This document shows positions 16,032 through 37,621 of a DNA stretch of 64,000 nucleotides, one piece after another (the first letter of the stretch is position 1; each line of letters opens with the position of its first letter). Made by a program: the position numbers and the translations under genes. The DNA comes from an uncultured Pelagibacteraceae bacterium (GTDB lineage: Bacteria > Pseudomonadota > Alphaproteobacteria > Pelagibacterales > Pelagibacteraceae). The notes under the pieces were generated by a model. The model worked only from the letters and a program-made list of their open reading frames with translations, was not told the DNA's origin and searched no databases. Where the stretch lies: contig CACBWM010000001.1 of NCBI GenBank assembly GCA_902542975.1, positions 163,296-227,295 of the forward strand. The letters run 5' to 3'.

Positions 16032-17072
16032 GTGACAAAAGTTGGTGAACATATAACTCTAGATATCATTGGAACAAAAAAAGAATATGATCCCTCATTT
16101 TATGAAAAGTTAGTTTATAAAATTGCAAAATTAGCAAAAGTAACAGTTTTAAAAATATCAAAATATAAATTTGAACCTCAAGGTTTTACATTGGTAGCTC
16201 TGTTAGCGGAAAGCCATATAAGCTTTCACACTTTTCCGGAAAATGAAATTATAAGCTTTGATTTTTTTACTTGTGGTAAAGTTTCACCATCAGTTGCTCT
16301 TAAAGTAATTAAAGAAGAAATAGAACATAAACAAATCATTATTAAGGAATTTAACAGAGATACGATTGATCTATATCATGATAACTATAGTTCACCAGGA
16401 TTAAAAAAATCTTATGTTGTAAATAAAGTATTAGAAAATTTTAAATCCAAAGCAGGTCAATATATTGAAATATTAGATTTAGAACAGTTTGGAAAAGCTT
16501 TATTTATTGATAATGAAATACAAGTCGCTGAGAGTGATGAACATTTATATAGCTCAACCTTTGTAAATTCTGGTCTTAATTTGAATTCAAATAAAGAGAA
16601 AGCTGCAATTATTGGTGGAGGTGACGGCGGTGTTGCAAGAGAATGTATTTCACAAAATTTTGGATTCATAGATTGGTATGAATTAGATCCTGAAGTCGTT
16701 GATGTATGCGATAAACATTTAAGTAAAATAGGAGAAAAGGCTACAGAAAAAAATTCATTTAAATGTGTCTGGGGTGATGCATTTGAGAGCATTAAATCAG
16801 TCAAAGATAATACCTATGATCAAATTTTTGTTGATCTTAACGATGATCAATTTTGCATAGATTTAGCTGCAAAAAATATGTCATCTTTAGAAAGAATTTT
16901 AAAACCTAAAGGTGTAATTACTGCTCAAGTCGGAAGCCAAGACAAAAAACCTAAACAAGTTGAAAATTGGTTAAATGTTTTTAACAAAAATTTTGGAAAT
17001 ACAAAACTTTCAAGAGTTTATATACCAAGTTTCGATTGTTCTTGGAATTTTTCCTCGTCAATAAATCATTAA
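16032..17072 (+). CDS. Fused S-adenosylmethionine decarboxylase / spermidine synthase
   Basis: The 346-residue protein joins two enzymes. Residues 1 to about 115 are a SpeD proenzyme with AESHISFHTFPE. Self-cleavage is expected between Glu60 and Ser61 to form the pyruvoyl group, and His66 and Cys81 (FTCG) are conserved. Residues from about 125 onward are an aminopropyltransferase (SpeE) with IIGGGDGGVARE and the acidic ELDPEV and VDLND motifs. One polypeptide thus makes decarboxylated AdoMet and transfers its aminopropyl group, releasing MTA. The gene starts with GTG, 3 bases after the aldolase stop, so the MTA producer sits with the MTA salvage genes. Confidence 0.88.
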   Translation: MTKVGEHITLDIIGTKKEYDPSFYEKLVYKIAKLAKVTVLKISKYKFEPQGFTLVALLAESHISFHTFPENEIISFDFFTCGKVSPSVALKVIKEEIEHKQIIIKEFNRDTIDLYHDNYSSPGLKKSYVVNKVLENFKSKAGQYIEILDLEQFGKALFIDNEIQVAESDEHLYSSTFVNSGLNLNSNKEKAAIIGGGDGGVARECISQNFGFIDWYELDPEVVDVCDKHLSKIGEKATEKNSFKCVWGDAFESIKSVKDNTYDQIFVDLNDDQFCIDLAAKNMSSLERILKPKGVITAQVGSQDKKPKQVENWLNVFNKNFGNTKLSRVYIPSFDCSWNFSSSINH

Positions 17073-17130: not shown

Positions 17131-17958
17131 ATGAAAAAATTAAAAGTATTAGGACTTGGTATTTTAATATCATCATTCCTAACAATTTCTTCAATTGCAG
17201 ATCAAATTAAAATTGGAACTGAAGGTGCATATCCACCTTGGAATTCTAAAGACTCAGCAGGAAATTTGATTGGCTTTGAAGTCGAATTAGCAAATGAACT
17301 ATGCAAAATTATGAATCATGATTGCACTATTGTTGAGCAAGATTGGGATGGAATGATACCAGCTTTAGTTTCAAGAAAATTTGATGCTATTATGGCTGGA
17401 ATGTCAATAACTGGTGAGAGAATGAAAACAATAAATTTTTCTCAAGGTTATGCTGATGAAGTTGCATCATTAGCTGTTATGAAAGGATCGAAAAACGAAG
17501 GCCTTAAAACAATGTCAGCTATAAATCTATCTGACGTAAGTGCTGATGAACAAGCAACACTAGATATTCTGACCAAAGCATTTAAAGGTAAAACTATTGG
17601 TGTACAAACAGCAACAATTCACCAGAACTTTTTAGAATCTGGATTAATGGGCAATGTAAAAATTAGAACTTACAAAACTCAAGATGAAGTTAATTTAGAT
17701 TTATCTGCTGGTAGAATAGATGCAGCATTAGCTGCAGCAGTTGCTTTTACAGATTATGCAGAAAAATCTGGCAAAGCAGTTGTATTAACTGGACCAACAT
17801 TTGCAGGTGGAGATTTTGGTAATGGTGTTGGTGTAGGTATTAGAAAAGGTGATTCTAAACTTTTAAATGATTTTAATGCAGCAATTGATAAAGCTAGAGA
17901 TGATGGCATTATTAGTAAGCTTGCTATAAAACATTTTGGTTTTGACGCTTCTATGTAA
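17131..17958 (+). CDS. Polar amino-acid ABC transporter substrate-binding protein
   Basis: The 275-residue periplasmic binding protein has a signal peptide (ISSFLTISSIA) and the family 3 pattern KIGTEGAYPPWNSKD near the mature N-terminus, then GFEVELANELCK and WDGMIPALVSRKFDAIMAG. These fit the HisJ/ArgT/OccT group, which binds basic amino acids, opines or related compounds. A good ribosome binding site (GGAGG) sits 7 bases upstream of the ATG. Two permease genes follow. A strong hairpin separates this gene from the first permease and probably favours the binding protein in expression. Confidence 0.88.
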   Translation: MKKLKVLGLGILISSFLTISSIADQIKIGTEGAYPPWNSKDSAGNLIGFEVELANELCKIMNHDCTIVEQDWDGMIPALVSRKFDAIMAGMSITGERMKTINFSQGYADEVASLAVMKGSKNEGLKTMSAINLSDVSADEQATLDILTKAFKGKTIGVQTATIHQNFLESGLMGNVKIRTYKTQDEVNLDLSAGRIDAALAAAVAFTDYAEKSGKAVVLTGPTFAGGDFGNGVGVGIRKGDSKLLNDFNAAIDKARDDGIISKLAIKHFGFDASM

Positions 17959-17967
17959 TAAATTATT

Positions 17968-17995
17968 TATGGGTGGCTATAATTAGCCACCTATA
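17968..17995 (+). promoter_or_regulatory. Intercistronic hairpin after the amino-acid binding-protein gene
   Basis: GGTGGCTA (17972-17979) pairs with TAGCCACC (17984-17991) around a TAAT loop, and four weaker pairs extend the stem to about 12 bp. No T-tract follows, so it is not a classical terminator. It ends 2 bases before the permease ATG and covers the region where a ribosome binding site would lie. It could protect the upstream mRNA from 3' decay and lower permease translation. Confidence 0.75.
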
Positions 17996-17997
17996 TT

Positions 17998-18690
17998 ATG
18001 GAACTTCTATATTTTGGTGATAAAGGCTGGGGAGATGAGTTATTCTTTGCAACCTTAATGACAATTGCGGTTTCAATAACCGCAATGATAATAGGCTTTA
18101 TATTTGCTGCTTTATTCACTCCATTAAAATTATCTAATAACAAATTTCTTAATTCTATTGGTAATGCATACACCACTGTTATTAGAGGTGTACCTGAGCT
18201 TCTAGTAATTTATTTATTTTTCTTTGGCGGAAGTGGAGCAATTATGTTTGTTGCTTCTATATTTGGTTACAATGATTACATTGAAATTAATGCTTTTTTA
18301 ACTGGTTCATTTTCAATAGGGATAATATCGGGAGCGTACTCTACTGAAGTATTTAGAGGAGCCCTACAATCAATTGATAAGGGTCAGTTCGAAGCTGCAA
18401 AAGTTTTAGGTTTTAATAAATATATTTACTTCTTTAAAATTATTTTGCCTCAAATGCTAAGACTAGCAATTCCAAACTTAAGTAATGTTTGGCAAATTAC
18501 ATTAAAAGATACTTCTCTTATATCTGTAACGGGTTTAGTTGAAATAATGAGACAATCCTATATTGCAGCTGGTTCAACTAGAGATCCATTATTTTTTTAC
18601 TCATTTGCAGCAGTGCTATACTTAATGCTTACATTTTTAAGTATGCAATTATTAAATAGATTAGAAACAAAATATAGCAAAGGTTATTAA
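17998..18690 (+). CDS. Amino-acid ABC transporter permease (HisQ/OccQ type)
   Basis: The 230-residue inner-membrane protein has the HisMQ-type permease pattern: TVIRGVPELLVIYLFFF near residue 60 and the EAA-type loop DKGQFEAAKVLGFNKYIYFFKIILPQ. It would form one half of the transmembrane channel for the binding protein encoded upstream, together with the next permease. Its stop shares one base with that gene (TAATG). No ATPase gene lies in this cluster, so the energising subunit must be encoded elsewhere. Confidence 0.88.
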   Translation: MELLYFGDKGWGDELFFATLMTIAVSITAMIIGFIFAALFTPLKLSNNKFLNSIGNAYTTVIRGVPELLVIYLFFFGGSGAIMFVASIFGYNDYIEINAFLTGSFSIGIISGAYSTEVFRGALQSIDKGQFEAAKVLGFNKYIYFFKIILPQMLRLAIPNLSNVWQITLKDTSLISVTGLVEIMRQSYIAAGSTRDPLFFYSFAAVLYLMLTFLSMQLLNRLETKYSKGY

Positions 18691-24870: not shown

Positions 24871-24931
24871 TGACTAAAATTTATAACTTATGTTTAATGA
24901 TGGTTTCATAAATATAATAAGAGAGGAAATA

Positions 24932-25906
24932 ATGAAACTAATTAAAACTTTTATTTCAGTTTTATTCTCTGCTTTCCTTCTATTTTCATCAACAAGTTCA
25001 TTTGCAGTTGAAAAATTACATTTTTTAATTGGCGGTGGTGCTGGTGGTGGTTGGGATGGAACTGCTAGAGGTACTGGAGAAGCATTAACAAAAGCTGGTT
25101 TTTTGAAAAGTGCATCATTTGAAAACATGTCAGGTGGTGGAGGTGGTAAGGCTTTGGCTTACCTAATCAATAACGCTCCGAAAGATACAGTTTTAGTTCA
25201 GTCAACACCATTGGTGTTAAGATCTATTACAAGACACAAAGGTTATGTAAAAGGTACTGGCACTTTATCTTATAAAGATGTTAAACCAATTGCAGGTGTA
25301 ATTGGAGATTATGGTGCAATAGTTGTTGCAAAAAATTCACCTATCAAAAATTTCAAAGATGCAGTTGATCAATATCAAAAAGATCCAAAGTCAATTAAAA
25401 TGGCTGGAGGATCTGTAAGAGGAAGCATGGACCACTTAATTGGTGCGTTAGCTTTCCAAGCAGCTGGAGCAAATCCAAACGATGTGATCTATGTTCCATA
25501 TGATGCTGGTGGAAAAGCGCTTGCTGGACTTTTATCTGGAGAAACTCAAATACTTTCAACAGGCTTAGGTGAAGTAATGGGTGCTAGAGATCAAGTAAGA
25601 ATAATTGGTATCACAGCTCCTGAAAGAGTAGGTGATGCACCAGAAGCTCCAACATTAAAAGAGCAAGGATATGATGTTCAGTTTGTTAACTGGAGAGGTT
25701 TCTTCGCACCAAAAAGCATGAGTATGAGTGACTATAACAAAATCTCTAAAATGCTTGGTGATGTTCAAAAGACACCAGAGTGGGAAGCTGTTAGAAAAAG
25801 AAATGCATGGGTAAATATTTATAACCCTGGTTCTAAATTTGATGCGTTCTTAGAAAAACAAACAGTTGAAATGACAGCTCTGATGAAAAAACTTGGAGTA
25901 ATATAA
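24932..25906 (+). CDS. Tripartite tricarboxylate transporter substrate-binding protein (TctC type), operon 1
   Basis: The periplasmic binding protein of a TTT importer. The track ORF begins at 24890, but the ATG at 24932 is preceded by GAGAGGA at 5 bases and opens the signal peptide (FISVLFSAFLLFSSTSSFA), giving 324 residues. The mature protein starts KLHFLIGGGAGGGWDG, the glycine-rich ligand loop, and has MAGGSVRGSMDHL and VPYDAGGKALAGLLSG. Substrate is a di- or tricarboxylate or similar acid, not identifiable here. A strong terminator-like hairpin lies immediately downstream, inside the start of the next gene. Confidence 0.88.
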   Translation: MKLIKTFISVLFSAFLLFSSTSSFAVEKLHFLIGGGAGGGWDGTARGTGEALTKAGFLKSASFENMSGGGGGKALAYLINNAPKDTVLVQSTPLVLRSITRHKGYVKGTGTLSYKDVKPIAGVIGDYGAIVVAKNSPIKNFKDAVDQYQKDPKSIKMAGGSVRGSMDHLIGALAFQAAGANPNDVIYVPYDAGGKALAGLLSGETQILSTGLGEVMGARDQVRIIGITAPERVGDAPEAPTLKEQGYDVQFVNWRGFFAPKSMSMSDYNKISKMLGDVQKTPEWEAVRKRNAWVNIYNPGSKFDAFLEKQTVEMTALMKKLGVI

Positions 25907-25930
25907 TCTTTATAGATTATTAAAGAATGT

Positions 25931-25977
25931 AAAGCAGTGAGAATAAGTCCTACAAAATTTATCTCACTGCTTTTTTT
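25931..25977 (+). terminator. Intrinsic terminator/attenuator overlapping the tctB start
   Basis: AAAGCAGTGAGA (25931-25942) and TCTCACTGCTTT (25962-25973) form a perfect 12-bp stem with a 19-base loop, followed by more T residues (TTTTTTT at 25971-25977). This is the strongest intrinsic terminator in the window. It begins 25 bases after the tctC stop. The GTG start of tctB lies in its left arm, so read-through is needed to express tctB and tctA. Confidence 0.85.
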
Positions 25978-26407
25978 AGTTTTATCAGTATTTTATCTAT
26001 ACACTGCATACAACATTCAAGTATTTGCATTTGATGAAAACGCACCATTCAATGCTAGGACTTTCCCAATATATTTAGGTTGGGCAGGAATAATTTTATC
26101 GAGTTTAAAAATAATTTTACCTGAAAAACTTACTACAGAGGTAAACCATAAACACTTAGATTACAAAAGTATAATTTATCTTATAATTATCTCACTAATA
26201 TATGCTGCTGTAATATTAAAAATTGGATATTTTATATCAACTTCTTTATTTCTTTTTGCATCTTACTATTTCTTAGGTGAAAGAAGATGGGGACTGATGT
26301 TTATTTTATCTTTCCCATTTGTTGCTGCATTTATGTATTTGTTACACGGATTATTAAACATTTATCTTCGTGATCCGTTTTTAAAATACATTGGAGTTAT
26401 GGGATGA
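25937..26407 (+). CDS. Tripartite tricarboxylate transporter small permease (TctB type), operon 1
   Basis: The 156-residue protein with four hydrophobic segments is the small membrane subunit of the TTT importer (ARTFPIYLGWAGIILSS near the first loop is typical). The only standard in-frame start is the GTG at 25937, since an in-frame TAG lies at 25913 and no ATG follows before the first membrane helix. That GTG is inside the left arm of the terminator hairpin. Its end overlaps tctA by 4 bases. Confidence 0.82.
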   Translation: MRISPTKFISLLFLVLSVFYLYTAYNIQVFAFDENAPFNARTFPIYLGWAGIILSSLKIILPEKLTTEVNHKHLDYKSIIYLIIISLIYAAVILKIGYFISTSLFLFASYYFLGERRWGLMFILSFPFVAAFMYLLHGLLNIYLRDPFLKYIGVMG

Positions 26408-27903
26408 TCGAAGGAATACTTATCGGATTATCAACTGCTTTATCTCTAACAAATATTTTAATGGTGATGGTTGGATGTTTTGCAGGAACAATAATTGGAA
26501 TGTTGCCTGGACTTGGACCAATGACTGCAATTGCATTAATGATACCAATTACCTACGGCTTTGATCCATCAACAGGTTTAATTTTAATGGCAGGAGTTTA
26601 CTATGGTGCAGTATTTGGAGGATCTACATCTTCAATTTTGTTAAATGCTCCTGGAATACCAGGAACTGTTGCTACTGCTTTTGATGGTTATCCAATGGCA
26701 CAACAAGGTAAAGCTGGTAAAGCTTTAGCAATCGCCGCTTATAGTTCATTCGCAGGTGGAACAATTTCTGCAATATTTTTATTAGTTGCAGCCCCTAGTT
26801 TGTCAAAAGTAAGTTTAGCTTTTAGATCACCTGATTATTTTGCATTAATGATCTTAGGTTTAACCGCAATTTCTGCATTTTCGTCAAAAGGACAGTTTTT
26901 AAAGGCAATGATGATGGTTGTTTTAGGATTAATGCTAGCAACAGTTGGTCAAGACTCATTGTCAGATATCACAAGATTCACATTTAACAATATGAACTTA
27001 ACTGATGGAATAAGCTTTGTATTAATTGTAATGGCAACATTTGCAATGAGTGAAGCTCTAACGATTATTTTTAGAGGAAAAGATCCAAACAGAGCTGCAA
27101 AACAAATTTCATTAACAGAATTAGGCTCAATTAAAGTAAATAAAGAGGAAACAATTAAAATGGCTAAAACAATACCTAGGTCATCTATACTTGGTTTCTT
27201 AATTGGTGTTTTACCTGGCGCAGGAGCAACAATTGCATCTTTCTTAGCATATGGAATGGAGAGAAATTATGTAAACGAAGAAGAAAAACAAAAATTTGGA
27301 AAAGGTAGCGTTCATGGTTTATCAGCACCAGAAACTGCAAACAATGCAGCTTGCTCTGGTTCATTTGTTCCATTACTAACATTAGGAATTCCTGGAAGTG
27401 GTACAACTGCTGTAATGCTTGGAGCTCTTTTAGGTTTTGGTATTCAGCCAGGACCAAGACTTTATCAAACTAACCCTGAAATTTTTTGGTCGGTTATTAT
27501 GTCAATGTACATTGGTATGGTAGTGCTTTTAATTTTAAATTTACCTTTAATTCCTTATATCGCTAGAATTTTAGCAGTACCGAGAAATTACTTAATTCCT
27601 TTAATTTTATTTTTTTCAGTAACAGGAATATATTTAATGTCATTTAACAATTTTGATATTTTTTTAATGATAGGTATTGCAGTGGTTGCAACTTTTTTAA
27701 GGCTCTATGATTTCCCCATGCCACCTTTAATATTGGCTTTCGTACTCGGGGGGCTAATGGAGGAAACATTGAGAAGATCACTATTAATAAGTGATGGATC
27801 ACCTAATTTTTTATGGGATAGACCAATAACTCTAATAATATTATTGATCACAATAACAATTGTTGGTTGGCAAATTTTTTCAACTTTTAGAAAAAAAAAT
27901 TAA
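26404..27903 (+). CDS. Tripartite tricarboxylate transporter large permease (TctA type), operon 1
   Basis: The 499-residue protein has about 11-12 membrane segments. Conserved TctA motifs are GMLPGLGPMTAIALMIP, APGIPGTVATAFDGYPMA, GVLPGAGATIASFLAYG and LTLGIPGSGTTAVMLGALL, the paired glycine/proline loops expected to form the translocation path. It works with the TctC and TctB proteins encoded just upstream (ATGA overlap with tctB). Its 3' end overlaps a convergent small membrane-protein gene by 4 bases. The track ORF on the opposite strand at 27185 is a shadow. Confidence 0.9.
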   Translation: MIEGILIGLSTALSLTNILMVMVGCFAGTIIGMLPGLGPMTAIALMIPITYGFDPSTGLILMAGVYYGAVFGGSTSSILLNAPGIPGTVATAFDGYPMAQQGKAGKALAIAAYSSFAGGTISAIFLLVAAPSLSKVSLAFRSPDYFALMILGLTAISAFSSKGQFLKAMMMVVLGLMLATVGQDSLSDITRFTFNNMNLTDGISFVLIVMATFAMSEALTIIFRGKDPNRAAKQISLTELGSIKVNKEETIKMAKTIPRSSILGFLIGVLPGAGATIASFLAYGMERNYVNEEEKQKFGKGSVHGLSAPETANNAACSGSFVPLLTLGIPGSGTTAVMLGALLGFGIQPGPRLYQTNPEIFWSVIMSMYIGMVVLLILNLPLIPYIARILAVPRNYLIPLILFFSVTGIYLMSFNNFDIFLMIGIAVVATFLRLYDFPMPPLILAFVLGGLMEETLRRSLLISDGSPNFLWDRPITLIILLITITIVGWQIFSTFRKKN

Positions 27904-37585: not shown

Positions 37586-37621
37586 AACCCCTATTTATTC
37601 AGTATAAGTAGGGGTTTTTTT
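37586..37621 (+). terminator. Intrinsic terminator between dctP and dctQ
   Basis: AACCCCTA (37586-37593) pairs with TAGGGGTT (37609-37616), weaker pairs extend into the loop, and the T-tract runs to 37621. The dctQ ATG is at 37622, directly after the last T, so no separate ribosome binding site exists outside the structure. Partial read-through would set a high binding-protein to permease ratio. Confidence 0.88.

Follow-up and report, generated by a model that had tools for sequence, protein, structure and literature searches.

Why does the start codon of a transporter permease gene lie inside a perfect terminator-like stem, and what might such a stem do? The question arises at the tctC-tctB junction of a SAR11 (Pelagibacteraceae) genome with a G+C content of 30%, from which we analyzed a stretch of 64 kb (the window). 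Few cells on Earth are as abundant as those of SAR11, which rely on binding-protein transporters and have few regulators.

A coding hairpin between tctC and tctB

The window carries an operon for a tripartite tricarboxylate (TTT) transporter in the order tctC-tctB-tctA, all three genes being identified by Pfam. Its features, given in window positions, are as follows.

24932-25906, + strand: tctC, solute-binding protein (SBP) of the TTT transporter (Pfam PF03401, 2.1e-14)
25903-25920, + strand: small hairpin across the tctC stop codon (ATAATCT/AGATTAT; predicted fold)
25931-25942, + strand: left arm of the 12-bp stem, holding the tctB GTG (stem search, fold and family alignment)
25937-26407, + strand: tctB, small permease subunit (Pfam PF07331, 4e-15)
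25937-25939, + strand: tctB start codon GTG, paired in the stem (GTG in 111 of 111 distinct junctions)
25943-25961, + strand: 19-nt loop with an inner helix of five pairs (25944-25948/25957-25961), codons 3-9 (fold; inner pairs covary in the alignment)
25962-25973, + strand: right arm, tctB codons 9-13 (ATC TCA CTG CTT T; rare CTG in 73 of 74 representatives)
25971-25977, + strand: T-tract of seven T, codons 12-14 (window sequence; interrupted by TTC in many genomes of genera g5 and g7)
26404-27903, + strand: tctA, large permease subunit (Pfam PF01970, 2e-151)

The tctC reading frame has an additional in-frame ATG at 24890. In the tctB frame GTG 25937 is the first canonical start, preceded only by TAG 25913 and, further upstream, the tctC stop TAA 25904. 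Beginning 24 nt past that stop, AAAGCAGTGAGA (25931-25942) is perfectly complementary to TCTCACTGCTTT (25962-25973). An earlier, sequence-only reading of this DNA had located GTG 25937 within the left arm of a 12-bp stem without mismatches and codons 9-14 of tctB in the right arm and T-tract, so that the stem would be protein-coding; coordinates, pairing and coding overlap all agreed with our own analysis.

The junction folds with a minimum free energy (MFE) of -18.9 to -22.5 kcal/mol (z about -5 to -6), and none of 200 shuffles was as stable. No second perfect stem of at least 12 bp with at least five G+C pairs occurs in the 64-kb window, and 60 Markov simulations of the window produced none. 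A simple terminator scanner overlooked the hairpin because its loop limit is 8 nt. The junction nonetheless combines what is expected of an intrinsic (Rho-independent) terminator, a stable G+C-containing stem followed directly by a U-tract and lying 3' of a gene's stop codon, with what is expected of a hairpin sequestering a ribosome-binding site (RBS), a GTG paired in a stable stem in all genomes. Judged by sequence and fold, the element is terminator-like and is predicted also to occlude ribosome entry. The small hairpin across the tctC stop is weaker, with MFEs in relatives of about -4 to -7.5 compared to about -2 for shuffles, which it beats in most relatives.

Known regulatory RNAs did not account for the junction. 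An Rfam search of the window returned tRNA only; the best match at the tctB site scored 25.1 bits against the 55 required, and a riboswitch or other known Rfam RNA was set aside since no match reached its gathering score. Neither component of a leader-peptide attenuator, a short regulatory open reading frame (ORF) and a competing antiterminator helix, was found at tctB: the region 5' of the gene holds just one ATG-TAA (25927), which is not conserved, and no competing helix upstream of the stem scored above shuffles. One specific candidate antiterminator, GCTCT near the 3' end of tctC pairing with AGAGC, was rejected. It shows no covariation with AAAGC in the window, many g7 genomes carry a different sequence at that position (for example AAGTTAATG), and overall scores equaled those of shuffles.

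Conservation, covariation and codon choice across Pelagibacteraceae

Using TctB-based whole-genome and GTDB searches, we collected 175 usable loci representing 111 distinct junctions in eight genera, with TctB identities down to 66%; 74 representatives have tctB sequences less than 95% identical to each other. The stem, with a GTG start inside it, was present at all 175 loci. The distance from tctC stop to GTG is most commonly 30 nt and ranges from 17 to 35. The same GTG at all 111 distinct junctions bears out its assignment as the tctB start, and ATG starts are absent, in keeping with the loss of pairing to the codon 11 C that an ATG would cause. Comparison of orthologous junctions had been set beforehand as the test of the proposal, with loss of the stem or a tctB start downstream of it as the contrary outcomes. 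We found no tctB-bearing relative without the stem and no start downstream of it, and both stem and protein are kept through compensatory and synonymous changes.

None of the 74 representatives has a non-standard pair among the nine outer pairs. Pair -5/35 is A-U in 14 representatives and G-C in 60; parsimony on the tctB tree places three double replacements there, with three changes per side and no intermediate seen. The other variable outer pairs (-6/36, -1/31, 0/30 and 1/29) underwent ten one-sided changes, all giving G-U; pair 0/30, for instance, is G-C in 73 representatives and G-U in one. This outcome is supportive rather than decisive, as coding also limits the direction of some of these changes. 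RNAalifold returned a 15-pair helix with a bulged A, in which inner pairs 24/45 and 27/42 covary. The covariation score of the stem was 0.168 compared to a shuffle mean of 0.102, was reached by none of 500 shuffles and exceeded all slid controls; these shuffles leave relatedness in, which the tree count removes for the main pair -5/35. Paired cells made up 97.7% of the stem alignment compared to 31-66% in slid controls.

Codon choice in tctB follows the stem. The start region is paired by the rare leucine codons CTG and CTC: CTG occupies codon 11 in 73 of 74 representatives, although it makes up 1.7% of leucine codons in the remainder of tctB, and codon 12 is CTC in 60 of 74 (background 2.1%) and CTT in 14, exactly those with A at -5. 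Of 111 degenerate positions in tctB, codon 11 is the least diverse in relative synonymous terms, and its third position changed 0 times on the tctB tree, where the mean is 13. TTC stands at codon 13 in 18 of 74 (24%, against a 16% background), with G opposite in 15 of the 18. Protein constraint accounts for the SLLF residues at this site, but not for CTG and CTC.

Terminator quality and ribosome-entry signals vary by genus. A Shine-Dalgarno (SD)-like match occurs in 7% of g1 genomes and in 0 of 19 in the window's clade, and most g1 genomes combine a long, near-perfect U-tract with the lack of an SD. With no SD to pair, ordinary RBS sequestration cannot be claimed in the window's clade beyond burial of the start codon. 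An SD (AGGAG, AGGGA or AGGAA) lies inside the left arm in all g5, g6 and g14 genomes and in 94% of g7, where it pairs with tctB codons 12-14. Stem stability is higher in these SD-bearing genera, and TTC often interrupts the U-tract. The U-tract is weaker in g5 and many g7 genomes, and termination may be weaker there, since the tract is not strictly kept. Occlusion of the start thus appears common to all Pelagibacteraceae members, whereas terminator quality varies. Slid controls scored as high as the SD extension of the stem, which is only suggestive as a separate covarying helix.

Taken across the family, the alignments show RNA-level selection on a stem that holds the tctB start codon together with, where one is present, the SD.

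Three other alphaproteobacterial loci also have structured junctions. In L239, from another family, a strong SD, GGGGGAGGA, at the tctC-tctB junction pairs with tctB codons 13-16 (TTC CTC CTC CTT) and there is no clear U-tract; tctB there appears to start with TTG. L242 and L243 carry strong hairpins in the tctC-tctB spacer, before the start.

In a search of 12 genomes for further copies of the motif, good scores occurred only at the tctB site and its reverse strand, the best match elsewhere having an E value of 0.006 (genome G103). Two loci in the collection deserve separate mention. At L157 (G266 C18) the start-codon stem is intact although tctB is interrupted (in-frame TAG, split matches). 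Loci L066 and L067 belong to the same 4130-base stretch found in opposite orientation at both ends of a single-cell contig (CACBMY010000011.1), probably a chimera of amplification or assembly.

Hairpins at other binding protein-permease junctions

Scanning the window for strong, co-directional stems with T-tracts, we obtained three hits, each between an SBP gene and its permease: one in an ABC, one in the TTT (tctB) and one in a TRAP transporter operon. The two additional features are as follows.

17972-17991, + strand: hairpin between an ABC SBP gene and its permease (ATG 17998); T-tract weak, almost absent (window scan)
37586-37621, + strand: hairpin between the TRAP genes dctP (SBP) and dctQ (37586-37616) with T-tract to 37621 (window scan; relatives)

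At the ABC junction (17972-18000) the ATG lies a few bases past the stem. At the TRAP junction AGGGG (37610-37614) in the right arm stands at SD distance from the dctQ ATG 37622, and the T-tract is the spacer between them. This arrangement is kept at 23 of 23 readable loci (of 25), two of them with different flanking stem sequence.

We extended the scan to the first 800 kb of a complete relative, G163, using heuristic gene calls. Strict hairpins followed 7 of 10 SBP genes (four Pfam families) compared to 11 of 801 other genes (p = 8e-11), a conservative contrast given that at least two SBP-like genes (PstS-like and Liv-like, judged from their N-termini) are counted among the others. Of the three SBP genes lacking a strict hit, two proved when inspected directly to have a strong hairpin without a good T-tract. 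SBP hairpins without T-tracts were found at 17972 in the window and at 16516 and 418310 in G163. At about 17310-17340 of G163 an ABC SBP-permease junction has a strong hairpin with almost no T-tract. Elsewhere in the 800 kb, strong co-directional hairpins also lie 3' of GroEL-, RecA-, ammonium transporter-, rhodopsin- and membrane pyrophosphatase-like genes, named from their N-termini only. Candidate start-embedded stems at 428482 and 299741 of G163 were left out of the count, the ORF starts there probably being miscalled.

Among 64 start regions in the window, that of tctB ranks second for structure, and its counterpart in G163 ranks fourth of 810; the tctB start region exceeds 99.75% of G163 gene starts in structure. 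The tctB hairpin lies where an SBP-internal terminator is expected, between the SBP and permease genes of one operon, in a lineage whose G163 genome is enriched for hairpins after SBP genes. The two scans show, at the level of predicted structure, that the tctB element belongs to a general SBP-hairpin-permease pattern in SAR11.

Candidate functions of the hairpin

Two kinds of related element are already known: internal terminators after SBP genes, and hairpins serving both as terminator and as cover for an RBS. In ABC importer operons of cellulolytic Clostridia, internal intrinsic terminators 3' of SBP genes have measured termination efficiencies of 20.7-96.1% (Wu et al. 2022, PMC9045158). 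As in SAR11, the hairpin lies directly past the SBP stop and ahead of the translocator gene, with partial termination predicted to give an excess of SBP. The Clostridial cases differ in being intergenic, confined to ABC importers and measured, whereas those in SAR11 span TTT, TRAP and ABC transporters and are known here from sequence; moreover, the tctB stem is coding and holds the start codon. In the pT181 attenuator, a single hairpin exerts both termination and RBS occlusion (PMC5435934). There too the terminator contains the RBS of the following gene; however, antisense RNA switches pT181 by way of an antiterminator, and we found no switch at tctB, where no competing upstream helix scored above shuffles. 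In addition, the pT181 RBS lies in the 3' half of the hairpin, whereas the tctB entry site is in the 5' arm and the 3' arm is coding; the dctP-dctQ hairpin, whose SD belongs to the 3' arm, resembles pT181 more closely in this respect. Bifunctional terminators that sequester an RBS were proposed as a class when no case had been demonstrated experimentally (Naville and Gautheret 2010, PMC2965389). The idea is exactly the one raised by tctB, but that study scanned 5' operon leaders, whereas the tctB element is at an internal junction and extends into coding sequence. Conserved hairpins in the vicinity of transporter genes, some of them terminator-like, are also found among the structured RNA motifs described in Pelagibacter, which include an rhtB element with a poly-U tail (Meyer et al. 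2009, PMC2704228). The text of that paper does not mention tct or tricarboxylate, and the tctB element matches no Rfam family.

Set against these systems, the hairpin is, we think, probably a constitutive element that fixes the SBP:permease ratio, giving abundant SBP and scarce permease through partial termination and translational occlusion. RNA polymerase leaving tctC would often stop at the stem and U-tract, yielding plentiful tctC mRNA that is monocistronic and protected at its 3' end. Where polymerase reads through, the stem would also conceal the ribosome entry site on the mRNA, so that tctB, and tctA translated downstream, would be produced slowly. It appears that, through compaction of the genome, a spacer element merged with the opening codons of the following gene.

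An unlikely but still appreciable possibility is translational control alone, the hairpin being selected to occlude the tctB start for low or coupled translation and the T-tract being a by-product of Phe and Leu codons. Consistent with this, SD and start are both paired wherever an SD exists, TTC at codon 13 accompanies an opposite G (15 of 18) instead of preserving the U-run, and L239, from another family, pairs its SD without a clear U-tract. It does not explain why most g1 genomes keep a near-perfect U-tract in the absence of an SD, nor why classical terminators occupy spacers, away from the next start, at other SAR11 SBP junctions.

We give rather less credence to a stabilizing or processing element, in which the stem would block 3'-5' exonucleases and protect tctC mRNA after processing of the full-length operon transcript. 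Strong hairpins without T-tracts at some SBP junctions would fit, as would the tendency of the small hairpin across the tctC stop to persist, but such a role leaves unexplained the start codon and SD inside the stem and the U-tract in most genomes. Slightly more doubtful is a regulated switch used throughout the family, in which access of a ribosome or factor to the start codon within a coding-region terminator would set both termination and translation of the permease genes; the invariant core (AGC..GTG/CAC..GCT) could serve as the recognition site of a trans-acting factor. A regulated attenuator fits less well than a fixed element that sets the ratio, as at other SBP junctions.

The sequence-only reading had itself suggested a self-sensing attenuator, with initiation of tctB translation melting the stem and suppressing termination. 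The start codon does lie inside the stem in every genome, but the geometry makes such antitermination kinetically unlikely, and we regard it as improbable overall. A 30S subunit requires RNA to about +15 of the start codon to be free of polymerase, which covers about 14 nt, and from footprint geometry the polymerase would then have about 10 nt left to transcribe, within a fraction of a second, before the T-tract ends. Furthermore, the 30 nt between tctC stop and GTG are too many for a terminating ribosome to cover the stem, the window's clade lacks an SD, and no alternative antiterminator pairing scored above shuffles.

A regulator-binding site in DNA is very improbable: the arms are inverted repeats with an invariant core, but all ten one-sided changes gave G-U, keeping the RNA pair and breaking DNA symmetry, and the inner helix, T-tract and long loop also count against it. 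An overlap arising by chance or forced by the protein is scarcely credible, for although SLLF residues are typical of TctB helix 1 (compare distant TctB N-termini), the protein leaves the CTG/CTC choice and 100% GTG unexplained, and codon choice, covariation and the lack of comparable stems in simulations contradict it.

A literature search, with most subscription journals outside its reach, found no paper on a coding-embedded tctB hairpin. What appears new is that the tctB stem is embedded in coding sequence, carries the start codon in its 5' arm and is maintained family-wide through codon choice, together with the evidence, from predicted structures, that SAR11 uses hairpins between SBP and permease genes in all three classes of transporter. 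At tctB an RNA structure clearly dictates both the start codon and the choice of codons, and the SAR11 junctions offer defined sites for testing bifunctional terminators. If the ratio-setting reading is correct, SAR11 could fix the stoichiometry of its transporters cheaply, by a hairpin that stops transcription past the SBP gene and hides the start of the permease.
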